This document shows, piece after piece, positions 5,328 to 63,355 of a stretch of DNA of 64,000 nucleotides (position 1 is the first letter of the stretch; each line of letters starts with the position of its first letter). Location of the stretch: positions 3,534,001 to 3,598,000 of the forward strand of contig NZ_CP043329.1 of the NCBI RefSeq assembly GCF_008195825.1, given 5' to 3'. A model generated the notes under the pieces. It did no database searches. It had not been told where the DNA came from and saw only the letters and a program-made list of their open reading frames with translations. This stretch comes from Pedobacter aquae (GTDB lineage Bacteria; Bacteroidota; Bacteroidia; Sphingobacteriales; Sphingobacteriaceae). The translations under genes were made by a program, and so were the position numbers.

Positions 5328-5356
5328 AGAGAGGCCTTTAAAACAGGCCTTTCTTA
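5328..5356. terminator. Probable terminator after the acyl-CoA ligase gene
   Basis: AGGCC (5332-5336 region) pairs with GGCCT at about 5346-5350 across an A/T-rich loop, followed by TTTCTT. It overlaps the 3' end of the convergent receiver gene and may act on both genes. The stem is short, so the call is moderate. Confidence 0.5.
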
Positions 5357-5734: not shown

Positions 5735-5788
5735 TTATGTTAAAGAAAGTAGTTTAAATCATACACCAGATAAATTTTAACGTAGCAT

Positions 5789-6352
5789 TTATGGTACATC
5801 TAACTTGTTTATAAATGCAGCAATCTCATCCGGATTTAAGACAAAATCAATTTTTGATTGTGCGATAGCTTGTAAAGGCATATAATTTACCTCTGCGCTT
5901 ACCGGATTTTGTACAAGTGTTGTTCCATTATTGGCTTTTACATAATTTAAACCTGCAGCCCCATCGGCATTTGCGCCAGATAATAGCAAAGCAAATGTAT
6001 TTTCTTTAAAAACTTTTGCTGCAGAACTAAACGTTACATCAATAGAGGGTCTAGAGAAATTTAACTTTTCAGAGAAATCAAGAGAAATGGTTTTATCACT
6101 TTCTATAAGCAAATGATAATCTGCAGGGGCAATATAAATATAGCCAGCTTCTAAAACATCTTTATCATCAGGCTCAATCACCTTTAAATTGGTTCTAGTA
6201 TTTAATAAATATCCTAATTGCGAATCGGTATAACCTTTCCGGTGTAGTACAATGATGATGGGAAACTTTAAATCATGATGAAGCTTTGGTAATACTTCAA
6301 GTAATACTTTCAAGCTCCCGGCAGAACCTCCTATTAAAAAGATGGTATCCAT
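5789..6352 (-). CDS. CheB-type protein-glutamate methylesterase without receiver domain
   Basis: The 187 residues cover only the CheB catalytic domain. The Ser-His-Asp triad is visible: S10 in GGSAGS, H37 in VLHRKG and D130 in SGANADGAAG. CheB removes methyl groups from glutamates that CheR modified, classically on chemoreceptors. Here the receiver that normally gates CheB is absent, and free receivers are encoded on either side. The gene starts one base after the cheR stop, so the two are co-translated. No chemoreceptor, CheA or CheW gene is in the window, so its substrate is probably a sensor kinase in this operon. That is inference. Confidence 0.88.
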   Translation of the reverse strand: MDTIFLIGGSAGSLKVLLEVLPKLHHDLKFPIIIVLHRKGYTDSQLGYLLNTRTNLKVIEPDDKDVLEAGYIYIAPADYHLLIESDKTISLDFSEKLNFSRPSIDVTFSSAAKVFKENTFALLLSGANADGAAGLNYVKANNGTTLVQNPVSAEVNYMPLQAIAQSKIDFVLNPDEIAAFINKLDVP

Positions 6353-6353
6353 G

Positions 6354-7211
6354 CTAAATGTTAAAGTTTATAAGCCTTCTTTGATCTTCTTGTTGCTTGC
6401 GCCATATTTTTTCTGTAGATATTTGATGGTAATGCCTATCTAATTTAGAAAACCTGATGGTTTCTTTAGAGCCTAAACCTAAAAAGCCTAAATGTTCTAA
6501 GCTTTCATCAAAAAGTTTAAAAACTTTTGCTTGTAAGTCTTTATCAAAATAAATCAAAACATTTCTGCAAATGATAAGCTGAAACTCGTTAAAAGAGCGG
6601 TCTGATACGAGGTTGTGCGTTGCAAAAATCATCTTCTCTTTAAGATCATCGTTAAAACGAGCAAAGTCATAATTTGCCGTATAGTACTCAGAAAAATTTT
6701 GCGTCCCGCCAGAGAGGATATAATTTTCAGAGTATAGTTTCATTTGGCTGATAGGGAAAATACCGTTTCTAGCTCTTTCTAATACGCTAGGGTTAATATC
6801 TGTAGCATATAATAAAGTTTTATGCATTAAACCGGCTTCCTTAGCTAAAATGGCAAGAGAATAAACTTCCTCACCGGTAGAGCAGCCTGCTAGCCAAATT
6901 CTTATCAACGGGTATGTGCCTAACCGTGGGAGTACATGTTCTCTTAAAGCTTTATAAAAAGAGGGGTCTCTAAACATCTCGGTTACGTTCACCGTAATCT
7001 CTTCTACAAATCTTTGTAAATAAGAAGGCTGTTTAATAAGTTGATACCTTAGCTCTGCAAAGCTGGTAAACTTATCTATCAGGCAAATGCGGTTTACCCT
7101 TCTTTTAATAGAAGCTTTGCTGTATTGAGTAAAATCATAACCGTAAAGTTCTGCAATTTCTGTAAGCAGACTTTCCAGTTCTTCATCTTTTATCAAATCA
7201 GGTTCTATCAT
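6354..7211 (-). CDS. CheR-type protein-glutamate O-methyltransferase
   Basis: This 285-residue protein has the CheR N-terminal helical domain (about 10-75) followed by the SAM-binding domain. Visible signatures are NVTEMFRDPSF at about 75-85, the SAM loop LAGCSTGEEVYS (A108-E115), LLYATDIN, and the late motif IICRNVLIYFD. It methylates glutamate side chains using S-adenosylmethionine. It overlaps the 3' end of the upstream receiver gene by 14 bases and is followed immediately by cheB. With no chemoreceptor in sight, it belongs to the group of CheR/CheB pairs linked to hybrid kinases, where adaptation of a kinase sensor domain is suspected. Confidence 0.9.
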   Translation of the reverse strand: MIEPDLIKDEELESLLTEIAELYGYDFTQYSKASIKRRVNRICLIDKFTSFAELRYQLIKQPSYLQRFVEEITVNVTEMFRDPSFYKALREHVLPRLGTYPLIRIWLAGCSTGEEVYSLAILAKEAGLMHKTLLYATDINPSVLERARNGIFPISQMKLYSENYILSGGTQNFSEYYTANYDFARFNDDLKEKMIFATHNLVSDRSFNEFQLIICRNVLIYFDKDLQAKVFKLFDESLEHLGFLGLGSKETIRFSKLDRHYHQISTEKIWRKQQEDQRRLINFNI

Positions 7212-7581
7212 TTAAAATTTTAGCTATGCTATATAAAAGCTTATCAATATCAATAGGTTTGGAGATGTAATCTGTTGCACCGGCGGCTAAACATTTCTCT
7301 TTATCTCCTAGCATAGCTTGTGCCGTAACCGCTATAACGGGTAATTTTTTTATTTTTTCATGATGTGTGATTACATTAATCCCTTCATAACCATCCATCT
7401 CTGGCATCATCATATCCATCAATATTAAGGCAGTTTCCGGATGTTGTTCTAAAAGTGTAATCCCTTCCGTTACGCTGTTGGCCGCTATACAATCAAAACC
7501 TTTTGATTTAAGAACCATCTTTAAAGCGAAGATATTTCTGTTATCATCGTCTATAATCAGTATAAGGGTGTTTTTTGTCAT
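7198..7581 (-). CDS. Single-domain response regulator (receiver)
   Basis: From the ATG at 7581 the product is a 127-residue lone receiver: IIDDDNRNIFAL (acidic cluster), LILMDMMMPEMDGYE (phosphoacceptor Asp), VIAVTAQA (switch Thr) and ISKPID (Lys). It is close in sequence to the third receiver of the neighbouring hybrid kinase (ILMDMMMPEMDGYE occurs in both), which suggests duplication. I prefer the ATG at 7581 over the start at 7623: a GGAG sits just upstream, and the start at 7623 would overlap the kinase gene and add a non-homologous basic extension. It overlaps cheR by 14 bases. Confidence 0.85.
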   Translation of the reverse strand: MTKNTLILIIDDDNRNIFALKMVLKSKGFDCIAANSVTEGITLLEQHPETALILMDMMMPEMDGYEGINVITHHEKIKKLPVIAVTAQAMLGDKEKCLAAGATDYISKPIDIDKLLYSIAKILNDRT

Positions 7582-7604
7582 AAACTTTCTCCATGTTTTA
7601 TTTT

Positions 7605-10600
7605 TTAATATTGGTATAACCAAACCCTTAACAGCGATAATAGCTGATCTATATCGACAGGTTTTGATATATAATCAGATGCGCCGGCTATCATGCATTT
7701 TTCACGGTCGCCCATCATTGCTTTGGCGGTTACAGCCATAATAGGTAAGTTCTTAAATTTTGGATGTTTCCTAATTCTGGAGGTGGTTTCATAACCATCC
7801 ATTTCAGGCATCATCATATCCATTAATACGATAGAAATCTCTGGATGTTGTTCTAGTTGTTCTAAAGCATCTTTACCATCGGTAGCAGAAATAACTTTCA
7901 TCTGGTGTTTTTCTAATGCTTTAGTAAGTGAGAATATGTTGCGTACATCATCATCAGCAATAAGAACAGTTTTGCCTTTTAAGACCTCATTTAAAGTGCC
8001 TAAAACGTTTACTTTCTTTTTAACAACATCAGTTTTCTTTTCTTCTACCAAGTGTAAAAACAGCCCTACTTCGTCTAAAATTCTTTGATAAGAGTGTACC
8101 GTTTTAATCACAATAGAATCTGCATATTGCTTTATCCTAATTTCTTCTGCTTTAGATAAATTCTTACCTGTGAAAATAATGATAGGTAAGTTTTCTAAAC
8201 CTTCATTTTTCTTGATGGCTTCTAGGGCTTCATAGCCTGTTTGGTCTGGCACACCCATATCTAAAATAATACAATCTACCTTGTCTGATGTTAAGGCTTC
8301 TACACTATCTGCTACATTATTTTTTATTTCTGTTGAGATATCAAAACTGCTTAAGAAATAAGACAATGCAGTTGCATGCTTAGGGTTTTCTTCTATAATG
8401 AGTACTTTTTTAGGATGTCTGTTTAGCGCATCTTCAATTTTCTTAAACATGATATCCATTTGCTCTAAAGCAACCGGTTTGTTGATGAAATCTATAGCGC
8501 CTTTTAATAAGCTTTCTCTTTTAACTTCTAAAGAAGACATAATATGTACTGGTATAGGCTTGGTTTTGGAGTTAGATTTTAACTCTTCCATTACCGTCCA
8601 TCCATCCTTTACGGGTAGCTGTATATCTAATAAAATAGCTAAAGGCTGATATTTCTCTGCAAACGCTACAGCTAAATCTCCTCTAACAATTACAATACCT
8701 TTATATTTCTGTTTTCTGGTATATTTTAGGAGTAAATTGGCAAAAGCAGTATCATCCTCAACTATTAAAATTACCTTATCACCGGGGTTAATATGGTTTC
8801 TGTCATCATCAATATCCTCAGGTATTTTAGAGGTAACAAACATGCTTTCTGTTGAGGTAAATAAAACCTCATCTATAGGTTTTTGCAGGTTTATTTTATT
8901 TAAAGCTACTATTTCTGGTTCATGGGGTTTAACCAAACTACTATCTATCGGAACTTCTAAAGTAAATGTACTGCCCACACCTTCTTGGCTGTATAAAGTA
9001 ATTTGCCCGCCTAATAATTTGGCAAGTTCTCTACTTATAGATAAGCCCAATCCTGTACCGCCAAATTTTCTTTTGGTAGAGCCATCTGCTTGCTGAAAAG
9101 CCTCAAATACCAGTTTTTGTTTATCTTCTGATATACCTATACCTGTATCCTCAACTAAAAATTGTATAAAATCTTTCTTTTTTGGATGATTTTGAATGCT
9201 GAGTTTTACATGACCCTGTTTAGTGAATTTGATAGCGTTAGAGATTAGATTTTTTAAAATTTGGTCTAAACGCATTTTATCTGTTACAATAGCGCTAGGG
9301 CTATTATCATCAAGATGAATGTGGAAGTCTATATTTTTTTCTTTTACTAAAGGGTTGAAAAGTGCTTGCAAATCGTCAACCATTTCTGGGAGCTCTGCTT
9401 TCTGGAAATCAAGGTCCATTTTACCAGCTTCAATTTTAGAAAGGTCAAGAATTTCATCAATAAGGGTTAACAAGCCAGAGCCCGAGCTTAGGATAACCCT
9501 TGCAGATTCTATCTGTTCTTCATTTAGGTTTTCCTCATTGTTTTCTGCCAATAACCTAGAAAGTAGCAAGATAGAATTTAAAGGTGTACGCAGCTCATGA
9601 GACATATTAGCCAAAAACTCAGATTTGTATTTGGTGCTTAATGCAAGCTCTTCTGCTTTTTGTTGTATCTCTATATTTCTTTCTACAATAAGCTGGTTTT
9701 TTTCTTCTAATAATTTAGAGCGCTCTTCTAGCTCTTGGTTAGATTGCATCAACTCTTCTTGCTGCACTTTTAACTCTTCTTCTGATGCTTGTAATTTCTG
9801 TGTTTGCGCTTCCAGTTCTGCATTCAGGTTTTCTAGTTCTGTATGCTGTGCTTGCATTTCTTCTGATTGCGCTTGGGTTTCTTCTAAAAGTCTTTGTACA
9901 TGTTTACGTGTTGCAGCTGCGGCAATGGCTACGCCTAAATTTTTGGTAGCATCTTTAAAAAATGCTATCTCAACTTCATTAAAGCTGTGGCAGCAGCCCA
10001 GTTCTATTACCCCTATAGCTTTATAATCATATAAAATAGGTACTATTAAAATATGGCTAACTTTAACTTTGCCATTAGCAAAAGAAACGGTGTAGTTTTC
10101 ATCATTGATAGATGAAAATAGCTTCTCTTTACCATTAGCGTAAACTTGGCCCAGCATACCTTCTCCAGATTTTACAGGCTTCAACATTCTTTCTTCTAGA
10201 CCATAAGCGCTTTGTAAGGTTAGTAAACCATTTTCCATCAGGTATAAAGCACCAGAATTACACTCGCCATAGCTAACCAAATGGCCTAAAGTATCTTGTG
10301 TAATAACATCAAGTGTTTTGTTGCCAACCAGTTTCTCATTTAAAGTTGCAATACCTTTTTGCAACCATTCATTATCGTTTAATATAGCAAAAGACTTTTG
10401 TAAGGCATCAGCCATGGTGTTTAATGATGTAGCTAAGCTTCCCAAGCCATCTTTTTCATCATCATTTAACCTAATATCATATTGGCCATTAGAAATTTGC
10501 AAAGCAACATCCTGTATCAAATGTATTCTTTTGCTAATCTCTTCATCTTTCTTTTTTAAGGCTAATCTTAAATTATCTCTGTCTATAAAATCATTCCTCA

Positions 10601-11201
10601 CCCTGAGGTAAAAAAAGAAAGTTATGAGCATGGCTATAATAGCAGCGGCAACAATTAATATGGTGGTATAATTACTAAAATGGGTTACAGATGCTGTTCT
10701 TTCTATCAATAATTGGTTTTCGGTATCTTTTATCTGGGCGATAATTTTTCTGGAGCTTTCCATAGCTTGTCTGCCTATTTCTAGATCTGTTTCGGCATAG
10801 GTTTGGCTATTTCTTCTGGCCTCAATCAATCTATTTAGCATCACCATCCTAGTATCTATAACGCCAGATAGCTCTTCAAACCTTTGAACTTGGATAGGAT
10901 TGTCCTGAGTTAAATCTATCGCAACTTTTAAAGAGCCAGGCAGAGATTTTAAGCCCGCATAATAGGGCTCTAAAAAGCCCTCTTTACCAGTTAATAAATA
11001 ACCTCTTTGGCCGGTTTCAGCATCCTTTAAGTCTGATAAGATTTTATCTGAAGCATCAATAACATTTTTGGTATGTTCTACCATAGCATTACTATGCTGC
11101 AATTGCCTGATACTGATAAATGATGCTACCGAGCTGATGAGTAATACAATCAGCGATAAGCTAAAACCAATTTGTAGGTTGCGTAAAAATGTCTTTTGCA
11201 T
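7605..11201 (-). CDS. Hybrid sensor histidine kinase: CHASE3-HAMP-GAF-HisKA-HATPase-three receivers
   Basis: The 1198-residue product has a membrane segment near 10-30, a CHASE3-like periplasmic domain (about 40-180, with DAETGQRGYLLTG), a second membrane segment (about 180-198), HAMP (200-265), GAF (about 290-430), a long Gln/Glu-rich coiled coil (440-520), HisKA with FLANMSHELRTPLNS (H535), a HATPase (about 642-750, NLISNAIKF, DTGIGI, GGTGLGLSI) and three receivers starting near 810, 930 and 1075. The phosphoacceptor Asp is present in each (LLDIQLP, ILDMGVP, LMDMMMP), but the acidic pair of the second is EE (IIEENPK). The layout suggests an intramolecular relay feeding the separate receivers. 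It starts 3 bases after the stop of the upstream kinase gene. CHASE3 ligands are unknown. Confidence 0.93.
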   Translation of the reverse strand: MQKTFLRNLQIGFSLSLIVLLISSVASFISIRQLQHSNAMVEHTKNVIDASDKILSDLKDAETGQRGYLLTGKEGFLEPYYAGLKSLPGSLKVAIDLTQDNPIQVQRFEELSGVIDTRMVMLNRLIEARRNSQTYAETDLEIGRQAMESSRKIIAQIKDTENQLLIERTASVTHFSNYTTILIVAAAIIAMLITFFFYLRVRNDFIDRDNLRLALKKKDEEISKRIHLIQDVALQISNGQYDIRLNDDEKDGLGSLATSLNTMADALQKSFAILNDNEWLQKGIATLNEKLVGNKTLDVITQDTLGHLVSYGECNSGALYLMENGLLTLQSAYGLEERMLKPVKSGEGMLGQVYANGKEKLFSSINDENYTVSFANGKVKVSHILIVPILYDYKAIGVIELGCCHSFNEVEIAFFKDATKNLGVAIAAAATRKHVQRLLEETQAQSEEMQAQHTELENLNAELEAQTQKLQASEEELKVQQEELMQSNQELEERSKLLEEKNQLIVERNIEIQQKAEELALSTKYKSEFLANMSHELRTPLNSILLLSRLLAENNEENLNEEQIESARVILSSGSGLLTLIDEILDLSKIEAGKMDLDFQKAELPEMVDDLQALFNPLVKEKNIDFHIHLDDNSPSAIVTDKMRLDQILKNLISNAIKFTKQGHVKLSIQNHPKKKDFIQFLVEDTGIGISEDKQKLVFEAFQQADGSTKRKFGGTGLGLSISRELAKLLGGQITLYSQEGVGSTFTLEVPIDSSLVKPHEPEIVALNKINLQKPIDEVLFTSTESMFVTSKIPEDIDDDRNHINPGDKVILIVEDDTAFANLLLKYTRKQKYKGIVIVRGDLAVAFAEKYQPLAILLDIQLPVKDGWTVMEELKSNSKTKPIPVHIMSSLEVKRESLLKGAIDFINKPVALEQMDIMFKKIEDALNRHPKKVLIIEENPKHATALSYFLSSFDISTEIKNNVADSVEALTSDKVDCIILDMGVPDQTGYEALEAIKKNEGLENLPIIIFTGKNLSKAEEIRIKQYADSIVIKTVHSYQRILDEVGLFLHLVEEKKTDVVKKKVNVLGTLNEVLKGKTVLIADDDVRNIFSLTKALEKHQMKVISATDGKDALEQLEQHPEISIVLMDMMMPEMDGYETTSRIRKHPKFKNLPIMAVTAKAMMGDREKCMIAGASDYISKPVDIDQLLSLLRVWLYQY

Positions 11202-11204
11202 ATA

Positions 11205-12692
11205 CTAAATAGGTATTGTAAAATAAAATGAAGAGCCCTGGCCCACTTTACTATTTACACCATAAGAACCTTGGTGCTGCCTTATAATTTCTGAACATAT
11301 ATATAAACCTATCCCAAGTCCTTGAAACCTGAGTGATGATTCTTCTACCCTAAAAAATTTCCCGAAAATGTTCTTTTGCTTTTCTAGCGGGATACCAATG
11401 CCATTATCAGTAACCATAACCTTTAGGTGGCCATTGTGTAATTCTGTTTCTATGGTAACTTGTTTATTATCTGGCGAGTATTTAAGAGCATTGGTTAAAT
11501 AATTTATTAAAACCTGTTCTATCCTTACTTCATCAGCAAAAATGAGATGATTTACGGAAGCTCCTTTCCTTATAATTTCTGCGTTTTCATGTGTTTGGTG
11601 AATAATATCAGTTACACTAGAAAGCAGATTTTCAAAGTTAAACGACTTCTTATTGAGCTTTAATTTCCCGCTTTCTATTTTAGATATATCTAGTAAATCT
11701 GCAATTAAATTATTCAGTTTTGAAAGCTGCAATTGTGCCCTTTCTAGGTAGGTACTGGCGGTATTATCGGGGTTATTTTTTAAGCTCCTTTGTAGCAATT
11801 GTACATAAGCTTTAATACTGGTTAAAGGTGTTTTTAACTCATGACTAGCAATACTTAAAAACTCATCTTTCTTTTTTTCTACTTGCTTTTGGTCTTCAAT
11901 ATCGGTAAAAGTACCTACCCATTTTACCACTTTATCTTTCTCCTTTATAGGGATAATTCTTAGTAAATGGAAATGATAAGCATCAGAATTAAGCTCTTTT
12001 ATGCGCACTTCTAGCTCTAAAGGGCTCTCTGTAAACATACAAATGGTCCATTCTTCTTCAATATTTTTATCATCAGGATGGGTATAAGGGAATGCTTTCG
12101 CTGATAAGGAATACCTGAACCATTGTTTATTAACAAATTCAATATTCCCCTCTGGGTCTGATGTGAAAGCCACCTGAGGTAAAGATTCTAGCGTAGAATA
12201 TAATTGTTCTACCCTTTCTTTAAGTTCTGCCTGTACTTTTTTCCTAATTTCTATTTCGGCCCTTAAAGCGCTTTGTATTTCATTTAGGGCAGTGGTTTGT
12301 TCGTATAAACGATAAAAGGTTTTAACCTTTAACATTAAAATATCTGGGTCTACAGGTTTGGTAACATAATCTATAGCACCAGAAGCATAACCTTGGGCAA
12401 TAAATGTTTTATCTGTATTAACAGCAGAAAGAAATATAATAGGTATATCTTTTGATTTACTAAAACCAGCTAAGGTCTCGGCCACTTCAAAGCCATCCAT
12501 ATCTGGCATTTGAACATCTAAAATAATAAGGGCATAGCTGTTTTTAAGAACTTTTTTTAAGGCTTCTTCGCCAGACAAGGCGGTGTCTACCCCAAATTTT
12601 TTAGACTCTAAAAGCCTTTTTAATGAATAAATATTTTCTGGTTTATCGTCAACAATTAAAATCATATTGCTGTGATTGGTATTTACTACCAA
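11205..12692 (-). CDS. Receiver-PAS-histidine kinase (soluble)
   Basis: This 495-residue protein lacks membrane segments. It starts with a receiver (about 9-125: IVDDKPENIYSL, ALIILDVQMPDMDGF, TKPVDPD), then a coiled coil, a PAS domain (about 165-265, QVAFTSDPEGNIEFVNKQW), HisKA with SIASHELKTPLTS (H284) and a HATPase (about 385-495: NYLTNALKYSP, DNGIGIP, GLGIGLYICSEI). An N-terminal receiver before the kinase core means another kinase can phosphorylate it, so it may work downstream of, or in parallel with, the hybrid kinase encoded next. It is the first gene of the minus-strand signalling operon, and its promoter must lie in 12693-12800, next to the divergent MarR promoter. Confidence 0.92.
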   Translation of the reverse strand: MVVNTNHSNMILIVDDKPENIYSLKRLLESKKFGVDTALSGEEALKKVLKNSYALIILDVQMPDMDGFEVAETLAGFSKSKDIPIIFLSAVNTDKTFIAQGYASGAIDYVTKPVDPDILMLKVKTFYRLYEQTTALNEIQSALRAEIEIRKKVQAELKERVEQLYSTLESLPQVAFTSDPEGNIEFVNKQWFRYSLSAKAFPYTHPDDKNIEEEWTICMFTESPLELEVRIKELNSDAYHFHLLRIIPIKEKDKVVKWVGTFTDIEDQKQVEKKKDEFLSIASHELKTPLTSIKAYVQLLQRSLKNNPDNTASTYLERAQLQLSKLNNLIADLLDISKIESGKLKLNKKSFNFENLLSSVTDIIHQTHENAEIIRKGASVNHLIFADEVRIEQVLINYLTNALKYSPDNKQVTIETELHNGHLKVMVTDNGIGIPLEKQKNIFGKFFRVEESSLRFQGLGIGLYICSEIIRQHQGSYGVNSKVGQGSSFYFTIPI

Positions 12693-49341: not shown

Positions 49342-50403
49342 ATGATGCTTAAGGGTGAAAGTAGATTTATTAGGGTTAATTTAATTACGATAATATCTCT
49401 CTTTTTATTGATTTTGGCGGGAGGAGTAGTAAGAAGCACTGGTTCTGGTATGGGTTGCCCTGATTGGCCAAAGTGCTTTGACCAATATATACCTCCAACG
49501 GATGTATCTCAACTTCCGGCAGACTATAAAGAAAAGTATGTTGCACAACGTTTAAAAAAGAATGAACGTTTTGCTAAAATGCTAGATCAAGCAGGATATT
49601 CAGATTTAGCTTATAAAATCCGTCATGATGAAGCTATCAAGCTTCCCGAGGAATTTAATGCAGCTAAAACTTACACAGAATATGTTAACAGGTTAATTGG
49701 AGCCCTTACGGGTTTATTCCTACTACTTTGTTTAGTTTATTCTAGGGTTTATTTAAAATCAGCTAAGAGAATATTTGTGCTGAGTTTGTTAAATGTTGTA
49801 TTAGTTGTTTTTCAAGCTTGGTTAGGTTCTATAGTTGTTTCTACTAATCTTGTAGCTTGGATTATAACTTTACACATGCTCTTGGCAGTATTAATTATTG
49901 CTATATCTATTTATACCTATCATGCTGCAAAAGCATTAGGGGCAACTCAAAATGAAACTAAGTCTTCAATATTTGTGTATGCACTTACGCTTTTAGCTCT
50001 GGTTTTATCAGTGATACAAATAACCTTAGGAACAGAGGTAAGAGAAGAAATAGACGCTGTTTTAGATAAGTTCCCAGATTTACATAGAACAGAGTGGTTA
50101 TGGGAAGTTGGTAGAGTTTACACTTACCATAAAGATTTAGCTCTGGCTGTAGTTTTAGTGAATTGCGTGATTTTTTATCTTTTATATAGAAATTATAGGA
50201 ACACGAAGTACTTTACTTATGGTACTTACATGATTATTTTAATAGGAATACAAATATTGAGTGGTTTAATTTTAGATAAATTTGCAATGCCTCCTTTTTC
50301 ACAGTCATTACATATTTTATTTGCAACCCTCATGTTTGGAGCACAGTTTTATCTTTTACTCTTGCTAAAGCCAGCGTTTAGCCAAAACAAACAAGATAAG
50401 TGA
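49342..50403 (+). CDS. ctaA: Haem A synthase (CtaA/Cox15)
   Basis: The 353-residue, about eight-helix protein oxidises haem O to haem A for the oxidase. Family features are RSTGSGMGCPDWPKCFDQYIPP in the first periplasmic loop, the EYVNRLIGALTGL helix, and histidines in ITLHMLLAVLI and SLHILFATLMFG that bind haem. The loop after the first helix is long, as in the eukaryote-like (Cox15) and Bacteroidota forms. ctaB starts 1 base after its stop. Confidence 0.92.
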   Translation: MMLKGESRFIRVNLITIISLFLLILAGGVVRSTGSGMGCPDWPKCFDQYIPPTDVSQLPADYKEKYVAQRLKKNERFAKMLDQAGYSDLAYKIRHDEAIKLPEEFNAAKTYTEYVNRLIGALTGLFLLLCLVYSRVYLKSAKRIFVLSLLNVVLVVFQAWLGSIVVSTNLVAWIITLHMLLAVLIIAISIYTYHAAKALGATQNETKSSIFVYALTLLALVLSVIQITLGTEVREEIDAVLDKFPDLHRTEWLWEVGRVYTYHKDLALAVVLVNCVIFYLLYRNYRNTKYFTYGTYMIILIGIQILSGLILDKFAMPPFSQSLHILFATLMFGAQFYLLLLLKPAFSQNKQDK

Positions 50404-50404
50404 T

Positions 50405-51249
50405 ATGAAGGATTTTAAGAATCTGGTTAAATTAAGGCTTACACTTTTAGTGGTATTTTCTGCTTCAATCTCTTTTTAATCGCAGATGAGAGCAGAGAAG
50501 CTATCCATTGGATAAACTGGATTAAACTTGTTATTGGAGGCTTTTTAGTTACTTCAGCTGCTAATGGTTTTAACGAGATTATTGAGAAGGATTTAGATAA
50601 ATTGATGACTAGAACAGCAGATAGGCCGCTTCCGTCTGGAAGAATGACTAATGGGCAGGCTCTAGTACTAAGTATCATGATGGGGATATTTGGAACTTAC
50701 CTTTTAGGAAGTTTAAATTTAACTACAGGTTTACTATCAGTTTTTTCCATTCTTTTTTACGCATTTATATACACTCCTTTAAAAAGAAAGAGTCCTATTG
50801 CCGTTTTTGTAGGCGCTATTCCTGGTGCTTTACCTCCATTAATTGGATATGTAGCTGCCCATGGTAAAATAGACCATATCGCTTTAATATTATTTGCAAT
50901 ACAATTTGTTTGGCAGTTCCCTCATTTCTGGGCCATAGCTTGGGTTTTAGATGATGATTATAAAAAGGCAGGTTTTAGATTATTACCAACTACAAAACGA
51001 GATAAAATAAGTGCTGGAATAACATTACTGTCTACCTTTATTTTAATCCCGGTAAGTTTATTGCCAACTATTTATGGTTTTGGTGGTTATACCATAGCAG
51101 GAGTTTCTCTAATAGCTGGCATTCTTTTTATGTACTATGCTTTTAAATTGTATATGGATTTAGAAGTAAAATCAGCACAAAAATTAATGTTTGCTAGTTT
51201 TATTTATTTACCAATTGTTCAATTAGTTTTATTATTTAATCTTACATAG
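50405..51249 (+). CDS. ctaB: Haem O synthase (protohaem farnesyltransferase), one-base frame break near the start
   Basis: This UbiA-family enzyme adds a farnesyl group to haem B to give haem O. From the ATG at 50405, MKDFKNLVKLRLTLLVVFSA reads well until a stop at 50477-50479, caused by one missing T in the run at 50473-50477. Adding it joins smoothly to LIADESREAIHWINWIK and the rest, for about 281 residues. The prenyl-diphosphate motif NGFNEIIEKDLDKLMTRTADRPLPSG is intact, and so is DDDYKKAGFRLLP. An essential gene in a complete operon is unlikely to be dead, so I read the break as a sequence error. Confidence 0.9.
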
Positions 51250-55555: not shown

Positions 55556-56401
55556 ATGAAAGAAATGAAATCTAAAATCTTATTATTTGCCATTATAGCT
55601 GCTTTGTTTACCAGCTCTTGTATGGTGATGTCTACTAAGAAGTATAAACAATTATTAGCTGATAAAGATTCTATTGCTGCTGGCTGGGATGCTGCAAAAG
55701 TTAAAATACAATCTTTAGAAGAAGAAATTGTAAAGCTTAAAGCCGATACTGCAAATTTAAACCAACGTATTGCAAGTTTAAGTAGTTCTTTAGACGATGT
55801 AAATAATAATTATGCAAAGCTGAGAACCAATAGCTCTACAGAGATAAGAAAGCTAGCAGATGACTTACAAAAACGAGAAGCTAGACTAAAAGAAGTTGAA
55901 GAAGTGCTACGTAAAAGAGATGAAGCTACTAATGCTTTAAAAAACAAACTTCAAAAAGCGCTCTTAGGCTTTGCGGAAAATGGCCTAACCGTTGAAATTA
56001 AAAATGGTAAAGTTTATGTTTCTTTAACGGATAAGCTTTTATTTAGCAGTGGAAGTATTGTGATAGATGAAAGAGGTAAACAAGCCTTAAAAGAACTTGC
56101 AAAAGTATTAAACACACAGCCTGAGATTAATATAGCTGTGGAAGGACATACTGATAACCAAAGGGTAGTTAACTTAGGCCAAATAAAAGATAACTGGGAT
56201 TTAAGTGTGCTGAGAGCTACTTCGGTGACCAGATTTTTAATTGATGAACAAAAAGTGGATGCTAACCGCTTAACCGCTACAGGTAAAGGAGAATTCCAAC
56301 CGGTAGAGAATTTAAATACAACCGAGGCAAGAAGTAAAAACAGAAGGATAGAAATTATACTATCACCAAAGTTGGATGAGTTGTATAATTTGATACAATA
56401 A
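55556..56401 (+). CDS. OmpA-family peptidoglycan-binding lipoprotein
   Basis: The product (281 residues from 55556, 278 from the ATG at 55565) has a lipoprotein signal (lipobox TSSC), a coiled coil (about 45-135, LQKREARLKEVEEVLRKRDEA) and a C-terminal OmpA domain (about 155-275) with INIAVEGHTDNQRV, RATSVTRFLIDEQ and ARSKNRRIEIIL. The Asp and Arg that bind diaminopimelate are in place. It ties the outer membrane to the cell wall. It ends in a strong terminator and marks the last core gene before the island. Confidence 0.9.
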   Translation: MKEMKSKILLFAIIAALFTSSCMVMSTKKYKQLLADKDSIAAGWDAAKVKIQSLEEEIVKLKADTANLNQRIASLSSSLDDVNNNYAKLRTNSSTEIRKLADDLQKREARLKEVEEVLRKRDEATNALKNKLQKALLGFAENGLTVEIKNGKVYVSLTDKLLFSSGSIVIDERGKQALKELAKVLNTQPEINIAVEGHTDNQRVVNLGQIKDNWDLSVLRATSVTRFLIDEQKVDANRLTATGKGEFQPVENLNTTEARSKNRRIEIILSPKLDELYNLIQ

Positions 56402-56422
56402 AAGGTGCTTCATATTATTTAA

Positions 56423-56458
56423 AGGGGATTTCATCTTAAGATGAATCCCTTTTTTTTT
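56423..56458 (+). terminator. Rho-independent terminator
   Basis: AGGGGATTTCATC (from 56423) pairs with GATGAATCCCT (to 56450) through a TTAA loop with one bulge, followed by nine T. It closes the OmpA gene. Confidence 0.88.
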
Positions 56459-56987
56459 ATGGTATTTAATATCCTATTATTGTGTAAATTTTTAGATATG
56501 ATAATAAAAGTCATTTTCTATTTTAAGCAATATTATCAGGAAATAAATGCTTTTATGTGAAGGAAATATTAAAAATCACAACACTAAATTGTAACTTAAT
56601 CAAAAAAATATATGCTAGCGGATATTTACTGGTTATAAGCCATTTTAAACGACTATGAACAGACTATTTTTCAAGTATTCTCTTTTCTTTCGGACAGAAA
56701 AGTATTAATACCGAAAGTAAAATTTACACCATAAAAATAGTTTCAGACGGCTCAATAAAAACGTCTAAATGAAAAAACGGGCACAAATTAAACTAGCCAA
56801 ACATTATTCCTTATCCTAAAAGACGACACCACCGACAATAAACGAACAGAAAATAAAAGACAAAATGCCAACGCTTCAGCAAAATCAAAAGAGCTGCATC
56901 CCAACGCTCAAAGCCGACCCAATGCAGCACATTTGCTTTTGACCCAACGCACCGACCCAAAATCGAATTAGTTTCACATAAAATCAA
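56459..56987. other. Island-left non-coding region with coding remnant and hairpin
   Basis: No intact gene is seen in about 530 bases. From 56655 to 56772 a frame beginning MNRLFF and ending SDGSIKTSK with one frame change looks like a remnant of a small secreted protein. From about 56884 to 56945 an imperfect inverted repeat (ATCAAAAG and AGCTGCAT facing ATGCAGCA and CTTTTGAC) is visible. Base composition shifts towards C-rich words (CCAACGC, GACCCAA). It may mark the junction of the island. Confidence 0.45.
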
Positions 56988-57007
56988 TATCTTTGCATCA
57001 AATGCAA
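56988..57007 (+). promoter_or_regulatory. Promoter and palindrome before the island regulator
   Basis: TATCTTTG (56988-56995) fits the -7 consensus. It overlaps an inverted repeat TTGCAT-CAA-ATGCAA (56993-57007) that covers the likely transcription start. The start codon follows at 57013. A regulator bound there would block transcription, which fits self-control by the Xre-type protein. Confidence 0.6.
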
Positions 57008-57012
57008 TTTAG

Positions 57013-57213
57013 ATGAGCCGAAAAGCAATAAATAGAATCAAGGTAGTACTGGTTGAGAAGAATCTGAGCAGTAAATGGCTTGCCGAACAACTTGGGAAAA
57101 ACGAAGCTACTATCTCTAGGTGGTGTACAAATGATGTTCAGCCTACCCTGCCAACTATAGTAAAAATTGCAGAATTAATAAATGTTTCACCAAGAGAACT
57201 CATCTGTGAATAA
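57013..57213 (+). CDS. Small Xre-family helix-turn-helix regulator
   Basis: The 66-residue protein is a single Xre/Cro-type domain (KVVLVEKNLSSKWLAEQLGKNEATISRWCTNDVQPTLPTIVKIAELINV), like the C (controller) proteins of restriction-modification systems. The next gene starts right after its stop. A short palindrome overlaps its promoter. It probably sets the timing or level of the island genes. Comparable small regulators lead many defence operons. Confidence 0.87.
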   Translation: MSRKAINRIKVVLVEKNLSSKWLAEQLGKNEATISRWCTNDVQPTLPTIVKIAELINVSPRELICE

Positions 57214-59622
57214 ATGGAAGAAAAACTAAACATAGCAACAAAAATTCCATTTAAAGTCTCGGCAAGAGCAGGTAAGCTTCTTGGTAGGGAAAATTTTTCT
57301 AATCCCGAAGGAGCAATAACAGAACTTGTTAAGAACTCATATGATGCAGATGCGGAAAATTGTCTTGTGATTTTTGATATACCAATAATCCAAATTGAAG
57401 ATGAAAATGGTGAAATTCAGAACATACCTGTAAAAGAAGAATCTGTTCTGTATATTATTGATAATGGCGATGGTATGGAGAAAAAGACAGTAGAAGACTA
57501 CTGGATGCAAATAGGGACAGGCAATAAAGAACAATTCTTCTTATCGGATAACAGAAGAGTCAAAACAGGGGCAAAAGGTATTGGCAGATTTGCTTTAGAT
57601 CGCCTTGGGTTAAATACAGAGATGTGGACTCTTTCAAAAAATGCAGAAAACAACATTGGTATTTATTGGCAAATGAATTGGAGCCAATTTGATGATTTGG
57701 AAAAATCAATATCTGAAATTGAGGCTGAAATTTCCGAAATTCCAATACAGATAGAAACCAAAATACAAGAACTACTTGAAAATAATTTTGATTTTCGAGA
57801 CTTAACCAATATAGATTTCAAAAGTGGCACAATTCTCAAAATATCGAATTTAAAAGACGAATGGTACATAGATGAAATAGAGAATGTTTACAAAAGTCTT
57901 GAAGCATTAATTCCGCCAAAAGAATTAAACATCCCTTTTCAGGTATATTTTAAACATATTCAAAATATATCTGATTACGGATATGTAAATACAGCATTTT
58001 ATAATGATTTTGATTATAAAATAAAAGCCAAATACAATGCAGAGTCATTAACTGTAGAATTTGAAATAGAGAGAAATGAACTGGACTTAAATGTTATTTA
58101 TAAAAAATACAAACATTTATACGAACAACTTTCATTTCCTTTTGATTTAAACACAATAGAAAATAAGACTTTCAAATACTCAAAAAGTGTAGGTAAGCTC
58201 CTAAATTGGGATTTGAATGAATCAAAGAAAAATCTACTAAAAGAAATTGGCGATTTTAATTTCACCTTTAACTATATAAAACTAGTAAAATCTTTGAAGG
58301 AAGGATATCCATATAAAGATATTATTGTAAAAGAAAGACGAGAAACTCTTGAACGATTTGGAGGCATCAAAATCTACCGTGATTCATTCAGAGTTAGACC
58401 TTATGGCGACCCCAAAAATGACTGGCTCGGTTTAGGTTTTAGAGCTGCAAAAAGTCCTGCTGGTGCTGGACAAAGAATAGGTGATTGGCGTGTAAATAAT
58501 GAATCTGTTGCAGGAATAATCACAATTTCAAGAAAAAACAATCCTTTACTAGAAGATAAATCAGATAGAGGTGGAATTCAGGAAAATGATTCTTTTGATA
58601 CTTTCAAAAATATAATTATTGCTATAATTCACGAATTTGAAGTAGATCGTTCAAGAATACTTAACCCAATATATCTTTTCAATCAACAAAAAAGGAAGGA
58701 AGAACAAGAGAAAGAAATCCAAAAGCAGGCCGAAGCTCTAGCTAAGAAGATAATTGAAGAACAAAAAAGGAATCCTGAACCTGATGAAAACAAAGAGCAA
58801 GAACGGGTTGAAACATTTTTTAAAGAATCTGTAAGAAATATTATTGAAGAAAAAGCAGATGAAGAGAATCAAGAAATAGTACAAGTAAGATCTCTTGCAA
58901 GTTTGGGTTTAATAGTTTCATCGTTTTCACACGAACTTAAAGAAGTGAGCAATAATGCTTCTGAAATAGTTGAATTGGAAAAATATGCGCTGTCATTAAT
59001 TCCAATTGATAAAAAAAGCTCTTCTGACTACCGAGATATGGTAGATATATTCCAATTGCTTAAGGAAGATAAAGAGAAAATAAAACATTGGGTTGATTAT
59101 ACTCTAACCGCAATAAGAAAGGATAAACGAAAAAGGTCAAAACTTGATATTGCTCATTTTTTTGACCAATTAAATGAATCTTGGAAACGAATTTTCAAGC
59201 GAAAAGATATAAATCTTTCCATTTTAAATAAAATTGGCAATCATACTTATGACTTTAGAGCTTTTGAAATGGATCTAACGACCATATTTTCTAATCTAAT
59301 AAACAACTCTATTGATTCATTCGAACAAAGAAAAACAATAGGAGATAGAAATATTGTCATCGAATTTGAAATTATAAATAATCGTCTTGAAATTATTTTC
59401 AGTGATAACGGAAAAGGATTAGATAAAGCATTTGAAAACAAGGAAGATATATTTCTTCCTTTTACAACATCAAAGAAGGATAGAACTGGAAATGAAATCG
59501 GCACTGGTTTAGGTATGTATTTGGTAAAATCAGTAGTAGACGACAATAATGGCAATATTGAAATATTGCATTGCCCTATTGGATTTTCGGTAAAAATTTC
59601 TTTTTCACTCATCAATAAATAG
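57214..59622 (+). CDS. Dual-GHKL protein: MORC-like ATPase plus S5 domain fused to a histidine-kinase-like module
   Basis: The 802-residue protein has two ATP-binding modules. The first (about 20-240) is a MORC/Hsp90-type GHKL domain: N-box ITELVKNSYDADA (E37, N41, D44), G1 IIDNGDGM (D83) and G2 GAKGIGR (119-125). An S5-like domain follows (about 385-480, IYRDSFRVRPYGDPKNDWLGLG), then a Glu/Lys-rich coiled coil (about 490-550). The second module has an H-box-like FSHELKEV (H573), N-box NLINNSIDSF (N696), DNGKG (D731) and GTGLGM (763). The next gene encodes a receiver, so phosphotransfer is plausible. Prokaryotic MORC-like ATPases are linked to restriction systems. It has no membrane segment. 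Confidence 0.88.
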   Translation: MEEKLNIATKIPFKVSARAGKLLGRENFSNPEGAITELVKNSYDADAENCLVIFDIPIIQIEDENGEIQNIPVKEESVLYIIDNGDGMEKKTVEDYWMQIGTGNKEQFFLSDNRRVKTGAKGIGRFALDRLGLNTEMWTLSKNAENNIGIYWQMNWSQFDDLEKSISEIEAEISEIPIQIETKIQELLENNFDFRDLTNIDFKSGTILKISNLKDEWYIDEIENVYKSLEALIPPKELNIPFQVYFKHIQNISDYGYVNTAFYNDFDYKIKAKYNAESLTVEFEIERNELDLNVIYKKYKHLYEQLSFPFDLNTIENKTFKYSKSVGKLLNWDLNESKKNLLKEIGDFNFTFNYIKLVKSLKEGYPYKDIIVKERRETLERFGGIKIYRDSFRVRPYGDPKNDWLGLGFRAAKSPAGAGQRIGDWRVNNESVAGIITISRKNNPLLEDKSDRGGIQENDSFDTFKNIIIAIIHEFEVDRSRILNPIYLFNQQKRKEEQEKEIQKQAEALAKKIIEEQKRNPEPDENKEQERVETFFKESVRNIIEEKADEENQEIVQVRSLASLGLIVSSFSHELKEVSNNASEIVELEKYALSLIPIDKKSSSDYRDMVDIFQLLKEDKEKIKHWVDYTLTAIRKDKRKRSKLDIAHFFDQLNESWKRIFKRKDINLSILNKIGNHTYDFRAFEMDLTTIFSNLINNSIDSFEQRKTIGDRNIVIEFEIINNRLEIIFSDNGKGLDKAFENKEDIFLPFTTSKKDRTGNEIGTGLGMYLVKSVVDDNNGNIEILHCPIGFSVKISFSLINK

Positions 59623-59626
59623 AATT

Positions 59627-60309
59627 ATGGAAATGAAATATAAAATAGGTTTTATAGAAGAAAATGTTAATCAAGTAAAACTATATAGAAGGAAACTCAG
59701 AGATTTTGGATTTGATGTAATTGGCTATGAATTTACAAAAGGTATGTCACTGGAGGAGTTAATGCATCAAGTCTATAATTCAGATATTGATTTATTGATG
59801 ATTGATTTTCGCTTGAATGAAAGCAATATAGTTCCGTTTAATGGTGACGAAGTTGAAAGACACGTTTATGAAAACAAACCGCTTTTTCCACATATTATCT
59901 TTACTAATAAGGTAGACCAGGCGGAACCAGATGTTGATGATATTAAAATAATTTTTGATAAAGAAATTGTTTTTCCTGATGATAATGGAGAAGACAATCC
60001 TGAAACAAAACATTTTATAAATGTTATAACAAAAAGTATCGAACAATACCAAAGGCATATAGAAAAGCGTAAGCAAATAATCTCTGAACTTATAGATAAA
60101 GAGAATAAAGAAGGTTTATCAATCGAAGAAAAAATTTGCTTTTAGCCACTCAAAGAGAATTGCTAAGCTTGGATAAAACGACAATTTTGGAGGTGCCTGA
60201 AACTCTAATTTCAATAGATAATCTTGATAAAATAACTAAAGCAAGGTTAGATGCTGAGGCGTATATTAAATCATTATTAGAGAATAACAAGAATGACAGT
60301 AAGGATTAA
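59627..60309 (+). CDS. Divergent response-regulator receiver protein with C-terminal extension, one-base frame break
   Basis: The open frame stops at 60145 (172 residues), but adding one T to the run at 60140-60143 continues it through LATQRELLSLDKTTILEVPETLIS to a TAA at 60307, about 227 residues in all, overlapping the HNH start by 17 bases. The receiver core is recognisable: E11/E12 (FIEENV), phosphoacceptor D60 (LLMIDFRLNE), T93 (IIFTNK) and K112 (IFDKEI). An insertion follows D60. The helical extension (about 125-227) has no known output domain. It is 4 bases after the kinase-like gene and is probably its partner. Confidence 0.82.
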
Positions 60310-60922
60310 ATTACCAAAAAGAAGGCCATTTCCTACAAAAAATCCAATCGGTGATAATTGGTCACAACATAAGGATGACTTAAGAGAGGATTTTCATAAG
60401 CACTGTGGATATTGTGGTTCTTATGATGGTTTTAGCCATACTTATTTCGAAGTAGACCACTTTGTTCCTAAATCACTATTTTCAAAAAGTGGAAACATTG
60501 GTTTTTGCCAATATGACAACCTTGTTTATTCTTGCAAATTTTGTAATAATATCAAATCAAGTAAATGGCCATCAAATGATGAAAAGATACCTAATCTAAA
60601 TAATAAAGGATTTGTTGACCCCACCTTAGCAATATATGATACACATATTTATAGAACTAAATCAGGTAGCATCAGGTGGCTAACTGATTTAGGCAAGTGG
60701 ATGGTTGAAGTTGGTTTTAAGTTTGACGAAAGAGATTTTTGTGTAAAGTTATTGTGGGAATTAAATCAACTACGAATATCATTTTTGTTCCTCGTTGATG
60801 AAGCTAAAAAGTATGACCCGAATTCTCAACAACATAAAACAATAATTGAAAAAGCAAAAGAGAGTGCGTTTCATTATACGTTATACAGAAATGAACTAGA
60901 TGAATATTATAAATCTTTATAA
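60293..60922 (+). CDS. HNH endonuclease
   Basis: The 209-residue protein has a zinc-braced HNH domain: C38-x2-C41 (HCGYCG), the catalytic FEVDHFVPKS (D55, H56), N76 in YDNLVYS, and C81-x2-C84 with NNIKSS. The rest is helical (about 140-209). HNH domains of this kind cut DNA and are found in restriction systems and in Septu-type defence. It is the only nuclease in the island and the likely effector. It lies between the receiver gene and the methyltransferase gene. Confidence 0.87.
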   Translation: MTVRIKLPKRRPFPTKNPIGDNWSQHKDDLREDFHKHCGYCGSYDGFSHTYFEVDHFVPKSLFSKSGNIGFCQYDNLVYSCKFCNNIKSSKWPSNDEKIPNLNNKGFVDPTLAIYDTHIYRTKSGSIRWLTDLGKWMVEVGFKFDERDFCVKLLWELNQLRISFLFLVDEAKKYDPNSQQHKTIIEKAKESAFHYTLYRNELDEYYKSL

Positions 60923-60925
60923 ATT

Positions 60926-62763
60926 TTGAAAACCGCATTCAAATATTTAAGTCAATATTCTACAACTCCAAAAGATGTGGACAGGCTTATTATTTCTGCA
61001 TTTCTTGAAATCAATAAATTAAAGCCGAAGAAAAATAAATTAATCAAGGCATACTTAATTGTTAGCGAAAATAAGGAGGAACACTCATCACTTCTGGAAT
61101 TTGTATCAGCGATTTATATAGATACAAAAGTATTTGGATTCGAAGAACTTATTGAGCTTTTTGAATTTGTTATCTCTCCTGTGGACAGAATTATAAATGG
61201 TGCGATTTATACACCTCAAAACATTAGGACTTTTATCGTTTTCGAAGCGTTTAAGAAAATCAATGCCATAGATAATTCTATTAAAATATCTGATATCGCA
61301 ATGGGCTGTGGTGGATTTTTATTTAATGCATCCATTGAATTAAAAAATAGAACTGATAAAACCTACTCTGAAATTTTTAGAAATAATATTTTCGGGTTAG
61401 ATATTCAAGAGTATTCAGTTAATCGAACTAAGTTGCTTCTCTCCTTATTGGCTTTGCAATCAGGAGAAGATATTGAAGAATTACAGTTCAACTTATTTCA
61501 AGGTGATTCCTTAGATTTTGATTGGACAACTAAAATTACTGAATTCAATGGTTTTTCAATCATACTTGGAAACCCTCCATACGTTTGTGCAAGAAATCTT
61601 GACTCAGAAACAAAAGAAAAACTAAAGGATTGGGAGGTTTGTAAATCGGGTAACTCCGACTTATACATTCCATTCTTTCAAATTGCAATTGAGAGTTTGT
61701 CTGAAAATGGCATACTAGGATTCATCACTATGAATTCATTTTTCAAAAGTTTGAATGGAAGGGCTTTAAGAGACTATTTTCAAAGAAAAGAACTTGCTAT
61801 TTCAATTATAGACTTTGGCTCTGAACAAGTTTTTAAATCCAAGAACACCTATACTTGTATATGTTTTATTGAAAATAAGGAACAGCAATTTATTTCATAT
61901 ACGGAATCAGAAACAAAACAGCTGACAGATAAACTCTCTTTTAAGAAAATTAAATACGACATTCTTGACTCTAAAAAAGGTTGGAATTTAAAAGACAACA
62001 AAACAATATCAAAAATTGAGTCAACAGGAATTCCATTTGGTGAATTATATCAAACGAGACACGGTATAGCGACCTTAAAGAATGATATTTATATTTTTAG
62101 ACCAGTTGACGAAGACGAGAACTATTTCTATCTACAAAATGGAAATCTTTACAAGATTGAAAAAGGCATTTGTAAAGATATTGTAAACTCTAATAAATTA
62201 AGCAGAGAGGTTAGTCTAAATAACCTTAAAGAGAAAGTGATTTTCCCTTACGACCAACAAGAAAAACCTAAGCTTCTTGATGAAGATTTAATGAAAGAAA
62301 GTTTTCCAGAAGCATATAAATATCTGCAAAACAAAAGAAAGATTTTAGCAGAAAGAGACAAAGGAAATGGAAACTATGAAAATTGGTTTGCTTTTGGTCG
62401 AACGCAATCACTAGAGAAGATTAAAAACAAAATGTTCTTCCCTAAGTACTCGGACAGGACACCAAATTTCATCATTAATTCTGATGCCGACTTGCTTTTT
62501 TACAACGGACTTGCGGTAATTGGTAGTTCAGAGACGGAAATGAAAATCATAAAAAAGATAATGGAATCCAGCATCTTTTGGTATTACATTAAGACGACAA
62601 GCAAGCCCTACTCTTCTGACTATTATTCATTGAACGGAAATTACATTAAAATTTTGGGGTTTGTGAACTGACAGAAAAAGAAAGGAAATTTTTAATCGAA
62701 GAGACAGACCAAAATATATTAAATGAATTTTTTGAGGACAAGTATGAACTAAAAGTGATATAA
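60926..62763 (+). CDS. N6-adenine DNA methyltransferase (TaqI/Eco57I-like), one-base frame break near the C-terminus
   Basis: The gene begins with TTG three bases after the HNH stop; no ATG is available before the catalytic domain. The frame stops at 62671, but one extra T in the run at 62660-62662 carries it on through ELTEKERKFLIEETD to TAA at 62761, about 612 residues. Motif I is ISDIAMGCGGFLFNAS (D123), motif II GLDIQEYSVNRTKLLL and motif IV GNPPY (N216-Y219). A TaqI-like recognition region fills the C-terminal half (LYQTRHGIATLKNDIYIF, NWFAFGRTQSL). It methylates adenine in a specific site and should protect host DNA. No helicase or fused nuclease is present. Confidence 0.88.
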
Positions 62764-62803
62764 TGTTGTTGAAGCAATAGGTTCTTTTCACTCTCAACTC
62801 TAT

Positions 62804-63355
62804 TTAATCAAAAAACGCTTTCAAATCTCTGAAATTCTGAAGTTGTTGGTCTTTTTCTGATAAGATGGCTTCTTCGGGTTTAATTTTCCAATCGATGTTT
62901 AAGTCTGGATCGTTCCACATGACACCAATTTCTGAGTCTTTATCGTAAAAGCCGGTTACTTTATAAGCAAATATGGTTTGGTCTTCTAGGGTTACAAAAC
63001 CGTGTAAAAAGCCTGGTGGTACCCAAAACATTTTAAAATTATCGGCACTTAGCTCTATAGCATGGTATTGGCCGTAGGTTGGCGAGTTTTTTCTGATATC
63101 TACCGCTACATCTAACACTTTACCTTGTATAACCCTTACCAATTTACCTTGTGCAAAAGGATTGGCTTGAGCATGTAAACCTCTTAAAGTGCCTTTTTGG
63201 GAAAAAGATTGGTTGTCTTGTACAAATTCTAAGTTAATGCCGGCCTGGGCGAATGTTTTCTGGTTAAAACTTTCGAAAAAGTAACCTCTTTCGTCTTTCC
63301 AAACTTTAGGTTCTATAACTAATAAATCTTTGATGGGTGTTTCTATAAAGTTCAT
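62804..63355 (-). CDS. rfbC: dTDP-4-dehydrorhamnose 3,5-epimerase
   Basis: The 183-residue cupin enzyme epimerises dTDP-4-keto-6-deoxyglucose on the way to dTDP-rhamnose. Family motifs are present: KVWKDERGYFFESF, QDNQSFSQKGTLRGLHAQ with the catalytic His, GKVLDVAVDIRKNSPTYGQ with the Asp, and FWVPPGFLHGFVTLED. Length is normal. Its start overlaps the DUF4286 stop (ATGA). No other rhamnose genes lie in the window; they may follow elsewhere. Confidence 0.92.
   Translation of the reverse strand: MNFIETPIKDLLVIEPKVWKDERGYFFESFNQKTFAQAGINLEFVQDNQSFSQKGTLRGLHAQANPFAQGKLVRVIQGKVLDVAVDIRKNSPTYGQYHAIELSADNFKMFWVPPGFLHGFVTLEDQTIFAYKVTGFYDKDSEIGVMWNDPDLNIDWKIKPEEAILSEKDQQLQNFRDLKAFFD

Follow-up and report, generated by a model that had tools for sequence, protein, structure and literature searches.

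This analysis concerns a cassette of Pedobacter aquae in which a putative two-component pair is packed together with a nuclease and a DNA methyltransferase. The DNA analysed here, referred to as the window, is a stretch of 64,000 nucleotides (bases 3534001-3598000 of the single-contig 3.85 Mb genome; positions below are those of the window), and the cassette lies near its end. An original prediction, made from this DNA alone, had proposed a five-gene defence system composed of an XRE regulator, a sensor with two GHKL modules, a receiver, an HNH nuclease and an adenine methyltransferase. We observed that the conserved unit consists of four genes, encoding a histidine kinase (HK), a stand-alone response regulator (RR), a PtuB-related HNH nuclease and an Eco57I-type adenine methyltransferase. 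The reading we favour, to which we give just short of an even chance, is that the cassette is a mobile defence of the restriction-modification (R-M) type, whose nuclease would be gated by a cytoplasmic His-Asp phosphorelay; we infer the relay, the sensing and the defence role alike.

Four genes recur together in unrelated genomes

We collected 121 further loci from plasmid, genome and viral collections and mapped them together with the window copy (122 in all; L199 showed no HK frame). HK stood with HNH in 26 of the 122 loci and with a metallo-beta-lactamase (MBL)-fold protein in 11. Residues and spacings were counted in 33 of these 37 loci. Three loci with a split HK (L015, L017 and L157; two HNH, one MBL) and L160, a near copy of L159, were dropped. 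The genes of HK, RR and the nuclease were consecutive on one strand, overlapping or at most 24 bases apart, in all but two of the 33. The exceptions were the window copy, with a 147-base gap that goes with a frameshift, and L020, in which two MBL pieces are separated by an IS982 transposase gene. In one arrangement the methyltransferase gene came last in 17 of 18 loci (the L144 contig showed none); it came first in 6 of 6 loci of the other HNH arrangement and in 8 of 9 MBL loci. Hosts in the named records included Bacteroidota, Alphaproteobacteria (Salipiger, Ensifer) and Deinococcus.

The idea that the genes would recur together in unrelated genomes was thus borne out for HK, RR, HNH and the methyltransferase. 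It failed for the exact set of five. A relative of the XRE-family helix-turn-helix (HTH) protein of the window (57013-57213, + strand, 66 amino acids (aa), HTH_3 E 6.6e-11) was present upstream of HK in only 5 of the 33 loci, as counted by similarity to the window XRE only, with other HTH genes uncounted. We therefore dropped the idea of a five-gene unit and regard XRE as an optional controller.

Further, we looked at HNH proteins on their own. The L013 HNH protein had five matches among 72,556 plasmid records, and all five records also had an HK match. An HNH profile matched 61 of 395 same-phylum genomes; the five matches of at least 110 bits were the five cassette genomes (the window's own and four others), and the next one was partial, at 61.6 bits. 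The HNH scan of viral contigs found 11 loci: the strongest eight lay on contigs shared with the HK scan (61 loci) and the weakest three did not. This HNH scan missed four HNH cassettes seen by the HK scan (L145, L147, L151 and L152). Equally similar HNH proteins outside the cassette were not seen in the plasmid, same-phylum and viral scans, whose profiles were built from cassette members and hence favour them. The same-phylum scans kept the best two HK candidates and at most the best eight HNH candidates per genome, so weaker copies may be missed. Of the 106 plasmid records with HK matches 10 were examined, as were 46 stretches around the best same-phylum HK places. A distant HK match was found in 3 of 50,697 phage records.

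We built an HK tree from 105 of the 122 loci by a quick search, with support from the Shimodaira-Hasegawa-like approximate likelihood ratio test (SH-aLRT) only; 17 loci (partial, split, near copies or no HK) were omitted. The 24 HNH-type HKs lay on one side of a branch (support 99) and the nine MBL-type HKs on one side of another (100). The remaining 72 were found elsewhere, many beside C5 methyltransferases and some beside Vsr genes. We compared ten proteins encoded behind RR in these other HK-RR loci with Pfam and found HNH_2 in two (L093, L094) and no nuclease domain in eight.

HK and RR resemble a kinase and its receiver

Pfam confirmed that the 802-residue protein (HK, 57214-59622, + strand) carries two ATP-binding modules, HATPase_c_3 and HATPase_c; the receiver is encoded separately. 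HK begins with a MORC-like GHKL module (HATPase_c_3, residues 31-173), followed by a middle domain to about residue 483, long helices with the putative DHp His573, and HATPase_c at 686-786. Its profile matches in the PDB were histidine kinases and MORC3. The predicted fold (model predicted local distance difference test, pLDDT, 78.1) gave Foldseek matches to MORC2 and Topo VI-B, and residues 16-487 matched MORC3 and Hsp90-type chains. The proposal of a MORC-like N-terminal module is therefore supported by both the sequence profile and the predicted fold, and the GHKL motifs of this module are conserved across loci.

H573, N694 and N698 of HK were kept in 33 of 33 loci, and so was Asp60 of RR; H573, D60 and, in the nuclease, H56 stand where the original prediction had placed them, and the proposed kinase and receiver sites are conserved in every locus compared. 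HK had no match to a Pfam DHp model, and DHp was called from residue conservation and profile matches. In intact loci RR was 209-248 aa long. The RR of L008 was predicted to fold as a receiver (pLDDT 83.3) with a helical tail. Above the cut-off, Pfam found neither an output nor a DNA-binding domain in RR. Judged by residues, PDB profile and fold matches, HK and RR form a putative two-component pair, with a predicted phospho-His kinase core and an Asp receiver.

The nuclease and the methyltransferase

The HNH protein (60293-60922, + strand, 209 aa, Pfam HNH E 3.4e-7) kept H56, N76 and N85 in 24 of 24 HNH-type loci. Its nearest solved relatives were retron PtuB proteins (best 1.2e-6), over approximately 90-100 residues, and it matched the PADLOC PtuB model with E 8.8e-13. 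The scores were under the NCBIfam cut-offs (PtuB 16.3 bits versus 150; TIGR02646 24.7 versus 52.15), and membership in Septu or the retrons was rejected on this basis. Pfam found no receiver domain in the HNH protein, and neither Pfam nor PADLOC found a PtuA-type ATPase among the island proteins.

The in-frame part of the methyltransferase (60926-62671, + strand, 581 aa, TTG start) matched Eco57I with E 3.7e-32 and PADLOC MTase_II with E 1.3e-99. NPP was kept in 31 of 31 sequences; the window copy has NPPY and the motif I Gly intact and a frameshifted C-terminus. We compared the window with L060 and observed identities of 62% for HK, 62% for RR (in-frame part) and 45% for HNH, while the methyltransferases could be aligned over 132 aa only, at 23%. 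Single linkage of the 31 sequences (E below 1e-30, alignments longer than 250 aa) gave four groups: the window's (8 loci), a second (12), L018 alone and a third (10). In the window's group L063 was at 45%, and three gene-first loci were joined by a weak 27% link. The third group comprised all eight MBL cassettes with a methyltransferase and the HNH cassettes L151 and L152. Over 23 loci, or 19 once near relatives had been thinned, the distances of HK, RR and HNH correlated with one another at r 0.75-0.93; their correlation with methyltransferase distances was 0.64-0.71.

By these sequence comparisons, the HK-RR pair exchanges its partners: it is found with methyltransferases of different families and with nucleases of either the HNH or the MBL-fold type. 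A restriction enzyme with site recognition of its own could hardly accommodate a switch to another methyltransferase group, which suggests that site specificity lies outside the nuclease.

The window copy and its frameshifts

Two of the genes, RR and the methyltransferase, are frameshifted in the window relative to L008 (Belliella aquatica), L009 (Chryseobacterium viscerum) and L010 (Empedobacter tilapiae), in which RR is a single 227-aa frame and the methyltransferase has 612-619 aa. The in-frame part of RR, with the putative phospho-acceptor Asp60, covers 59627-60145 (+ strand, 172 aa). It ends 147 bases before HNH, and the overlap with HNH that had been reported involves only the second frame (60109-60309 from stop to stop, + strand), which matches the C-terminal helical part of the 227-aa relatives. 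Likewise, the methyltransferase does not run in frame to 62763, as had been thought. Its last part (62672-62763, + strand) is in another frame, in agreement with the length of the relatives and with DNA homology to L008 up to 62764. All five genes do lie on the + strand; the claim that gaps do not exceed 4 bases is true only if the frameshift is ignored.

It could be that the island is a decaying relic, with both frameshifts real and the system inactive in this strain. This would concern the strain and not the family, and it is compatible with every reading of the mechanism. The shifts relative to three relatives are what such decay would leave, but both sit in homopolymer runs, HK, RR, HNH and the methyltransferase all retain their catalytic residues, and a core gene of the same assembly, cyoE, likewise seems frameshifted. 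We consider a relic rather unlikely. Assembly indels in homopolymers are a plausible cause of the island frameshifts because cyoE appears to be affected too; real decay is the alternative.

As for cyoE itself (heme O synthase, 50369-51249), the frameshift appears to be near the N-terminus: the in-frame part matches TIGR01473 only from model position 23, and a fitting N-terminus was seen by eye in another frame.

A phosphorelay that may gate a nuclease

We propose that the methyltransferase would mark host DNA at its target site and determine specificity, as its family and its exchangeability suggest. The fold of HK suggests that its MORC-like GHKL clamp may engage DNA or a methyltransferase-DNA complex, and that foreign unmarked DNA would alter the ATP-driven dimer state of this clamp. 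The kinase core would then autophosphorylate His573 and pass the phosphate to Asp60 of RR; these residues are in the sequences and the folds are predicted. RR has a predicted helical tail and lacks a recognised DNA-binding domain; once phosphorylated, it would activate or release the neighbouring HNH protein. We infer this last step because the adjacency of the two is invariant. In related cassettes the MBL-fold protein replaces HNH.

Several observations weigh against this proposal. RR matched Pfam Response_reg weakly (E 0.016, under the cut-off), and the HK model was poor near His573 (pLDDT approximately 52-68). The ribbon Cys pair (C41, C84) was absent in 3 of 24 HNH proteins. The RR and methyltransferase genes of the window copy are frameshifted. 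The receiver Lys was absent from all nine MBL-type RRs and from two of the 24 HNH-type ones (11 of 33 loci), so some of the wider HK-RR group may skip classical phosphorylation. The conservation of H573 and D60 does not represent 33 independent events, because the cassettes share ancestry. Finally, phosphotransfer, nuclease, methylation or phage assays for any member were not found in the literature searched.

The gate could be the same and the weapon different. HNH would then be a PtuB-like suicide effector that attacks tRNA or any DNA and causes abortive infection, with the methyltransferase only as a sensor or self-mark. Its kinship with retron PtuB proteins and the PADLOC match point in this direction, and the MBL-fold protein that also fills the place of the nuclease fits an effector and not a site-specific restriction enzyme. 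In retron-Eco7, PtuAB brings about a loss of tRNA-Tyr; the PtuAB of Septu reportedly acts on DNA (PMC11555353). However, the PtuB match is short and under the NCBIfam cut-offs, the cassette is without a PtuA-type ATPase, and restriction would be expected to come with a linked methyltransferase. We regard a suicide effector as unlikely.

It is distinctly unlikely that HK works without any relay, as a MORC/paraMORC motor that clamps DNA or forms loops for restriction under ATP, its kinase-like half and RR being structural. The MORC-like N-terminal half of HK and the loss of the receiver Lys would agree with such a motor, and a looping role was proposed for MORC/paraMORC in R-M operons (PMC2292703). 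Yet a motor without phosphotransfer is hard to sustain, because H573 and D60 are unbroken in all loci compared. HK and RR might instead act on transcription and adjust the expression of an ordinary type II R-M pair. This would agree with the XRE gene that leads the window copy and with speculation published in 2021 (PMC8011034), but it is very improbable given that RR has no Pfam output or DNA-binding domain over the cut-off, that its tail is predicted helical and that the genes are packed as one unit.

Taken furthest, the reading is of a phosphorelay-gated restriction system built from exchangeable parts, which we hold tentatively, at somewhat below an even chance. Here an exchangeable methyltransferase would provide specificity and self-marking, the MORC-clamp kinase would read DNA, and the one-domain receiver would pass the decision to an exchangeable HNH or MBL nuclease. 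If true, the cassette would serve as a plug-in chassis for immunity, its two-component signalling directed at a nuclease itself rather than at a promoter. His-Asp signalling, the classic chemistry of environmental sensing, would serve as a checkpoint on an enzyme that cuts nucleic acids, in a system whose specificity component and weapon can each be swapped. Bacterial MORC-like ATPases would also gain a testable function; a 2021 paper described their biochemistry as poorly understood (PMC8011034).

Comparison with known systems

The original prediction had recognised no named system, and this stands: HK and RR were unmatched by any model of PADLOC-DB v2 (2023), in which the best values were E 0.021 for HK, none for the in-frame part of RR and E 0.0046, to a control protein, for the RR tail. 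Assignment to a named PADLOC system was therefore rejected. No paper naming the cassette, and no passage setting out its gene set, turned up in the literature searched, a search that had most subscription papers and preprints outside its range.

The tie of a kinase and a receiver to R-M genes was already in print. Two-component-like pairs beside R-M genes were published in 2021 and speculated to control R-M directly or indirectly (PMC8011034). These HEF_HK/Response_reg_2 pairs (Bellieny-Rabelo et al. 2021) are described there with an HATPase_c_3, DHp-like and HATPase_c kinase and a stand-alone receiver, beside R-M genes and across phyla. The same architecture, an adjacent receiver gene and nearby R-M genes are all present in our case. 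Unlike those pairs, the cassette has no PF19191 or PF19192 match, a short RR and a PtuB-related HNH directly after RR. Its methyltransferase is of the Eco57I/N6 type, whereas those pairs stand mostly with C5 enzymes; as to nucleases, PMC8011034 stresses HNH_2 and Vsr. PF19191 (HEF_HK) had no match at E<=1 in the window HK or in six other HKs (three cassette-type, three C5-type), and in a genome scan it was absent from the window genome and positive in 1 of 99 same-phylum and 0 of 14 control genomes. PF19192 (Response_reg_2) had no match at E<=1 in the window RR pieces or the scanned relatives, in a search run with no positive control. We rejected the HEF_HK/Response_reg_2 assignment on these grounds. 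The cassette is new as a variant, and its general kind (two-component-like pairs beside R-M genes, with paraMORC kinship) was published in 2021.

MORC/paraMORC GHKL ATPases have been known from R-M operons since 2008 (Iyer et al., PMC2292703). They share with the cassette an N-terminal GHKL module, which in HK has a predicted MORC-like fold, the R-M neighbourhood and HNH nucleases among the partners; the cassette differs in that the island is without a helicase and a histidine-kinase core follows the GHKL module, with a receiver as partner.

In comparison with Type II/IIG R-M, an Eco57I-type adenine methyltransferase likewise adjoins a nuclease gene. However, one nuclease lineage pairs here with distantly related methyltransferase groups, so independent recognition of a shared site is unlikely. 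The PtuB proteins of Septu and type I-A retrons have the HNH core in common with ours, but the cassette has a kinase, a receiver and a methyltransferase and is without PtuA ATPase or reverse transcriptase. In Detocs the effector is fused to the receiver domain, whereas the cassette encodes its receiver and nuclease as separate proteins and adds a DNA methyltransferase. Detocs, a defensive two-component system that degrades ATP, is alike in that two-component signalling serves phage defence (PMC11249213). Two later reports are related. A Shedu-type defence protein in which an N-terminal GHKL ATPase is fused to a nuclease was reported to lose protection upon changes in either part, with nuclease control by the ATPase as the hypothesis of its authors (2025, PMC12137116). 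A kinase activated by single-stranded DNA was reported to control immune operons (2026, PMC13373217).

Genomic slot and mobility

The island is flanked, as predicted, by two ordinary genes, OmpA-like (55556-56401) and rfbC-like (62804-63355, - strand), both named by eye. These flanking genes were at most 8 kb apart in 8 of 18 same-genus genomes, including that of the window. In the other seven the slot was empty with the genes directly adjacent (G396, G408), held R-M genes (G405), unrelated small genes (G407) or other genes (G399, G401, G402). The G405 slot contained an XRE gene, an N6_N4 methyltransferase, an Mrr-type endonuclease and IIG-like pieces. The slot (56402-62803) is variable in the genus and modestly enriched in defence genes; a strong hotspot claim was rejected, as only G405 of the seven has R-M.

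The window methyltransferase was unmatched at E 1e-20 in 15 of 17 other same-genus genomes, and distant matches were found in G408 (35%) and G399 (28%). The GC content of the island was 0.308, compared with 0.348 in the remaining window and a lowest value of 0.327 among upstream 5750-bp windows taken in 500-base steps. Acquisition of the island is supported because the slot is empty or differently filled in same-genus genomes; the slot fits a defence role without proving it. The cassette is horizontally mobile. Clear phage genes lay beside two of five viral-contig loci tested (tail proteins in L143, DNA polymerase in L150; 10 proteins in total), and phage carriage is shown for few loci.

DNA homology by blastn spans 56817 to 62764 with L008 and starts at 56980 with L009. 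A probable promoter or 5' region of the island lies at 56980-57012 (+ strand), with an element, read by eye, that resembles the Bacteroidota consensus TAnnTTTG.

Further observations

The MBL-fold sister cassettes are L019, L020, L064, L065, L066, L156, L158, L159 and L165. Their receivers are without the usual Lys, and their signalling chemistry may differ. The L065 contig has two HK genes, one in the N6/MBL-type cassette and one near a gene that looked by eye like a C5 methyltransferase. HK was split while its neighbours remained in L017 (Klebsiella variicola plasmid) and L015 (Rhizobium phaseoli plasmid). Proteins of approximately 200-220 aa were encoded behind the receiver at L097:8689-9351, L186:9226-9888, L164:8697-9299, L185:9361-10020 and L011:10684-11328; they have no Pfam nuclease domain and are candidate new effectors. 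Elsewhere in the window, we noticed by eye a dense signalling locus (5354-12692) with receivers, CheB- and CheR-like proteins and a 1198-aa hybrid sensor kinase.
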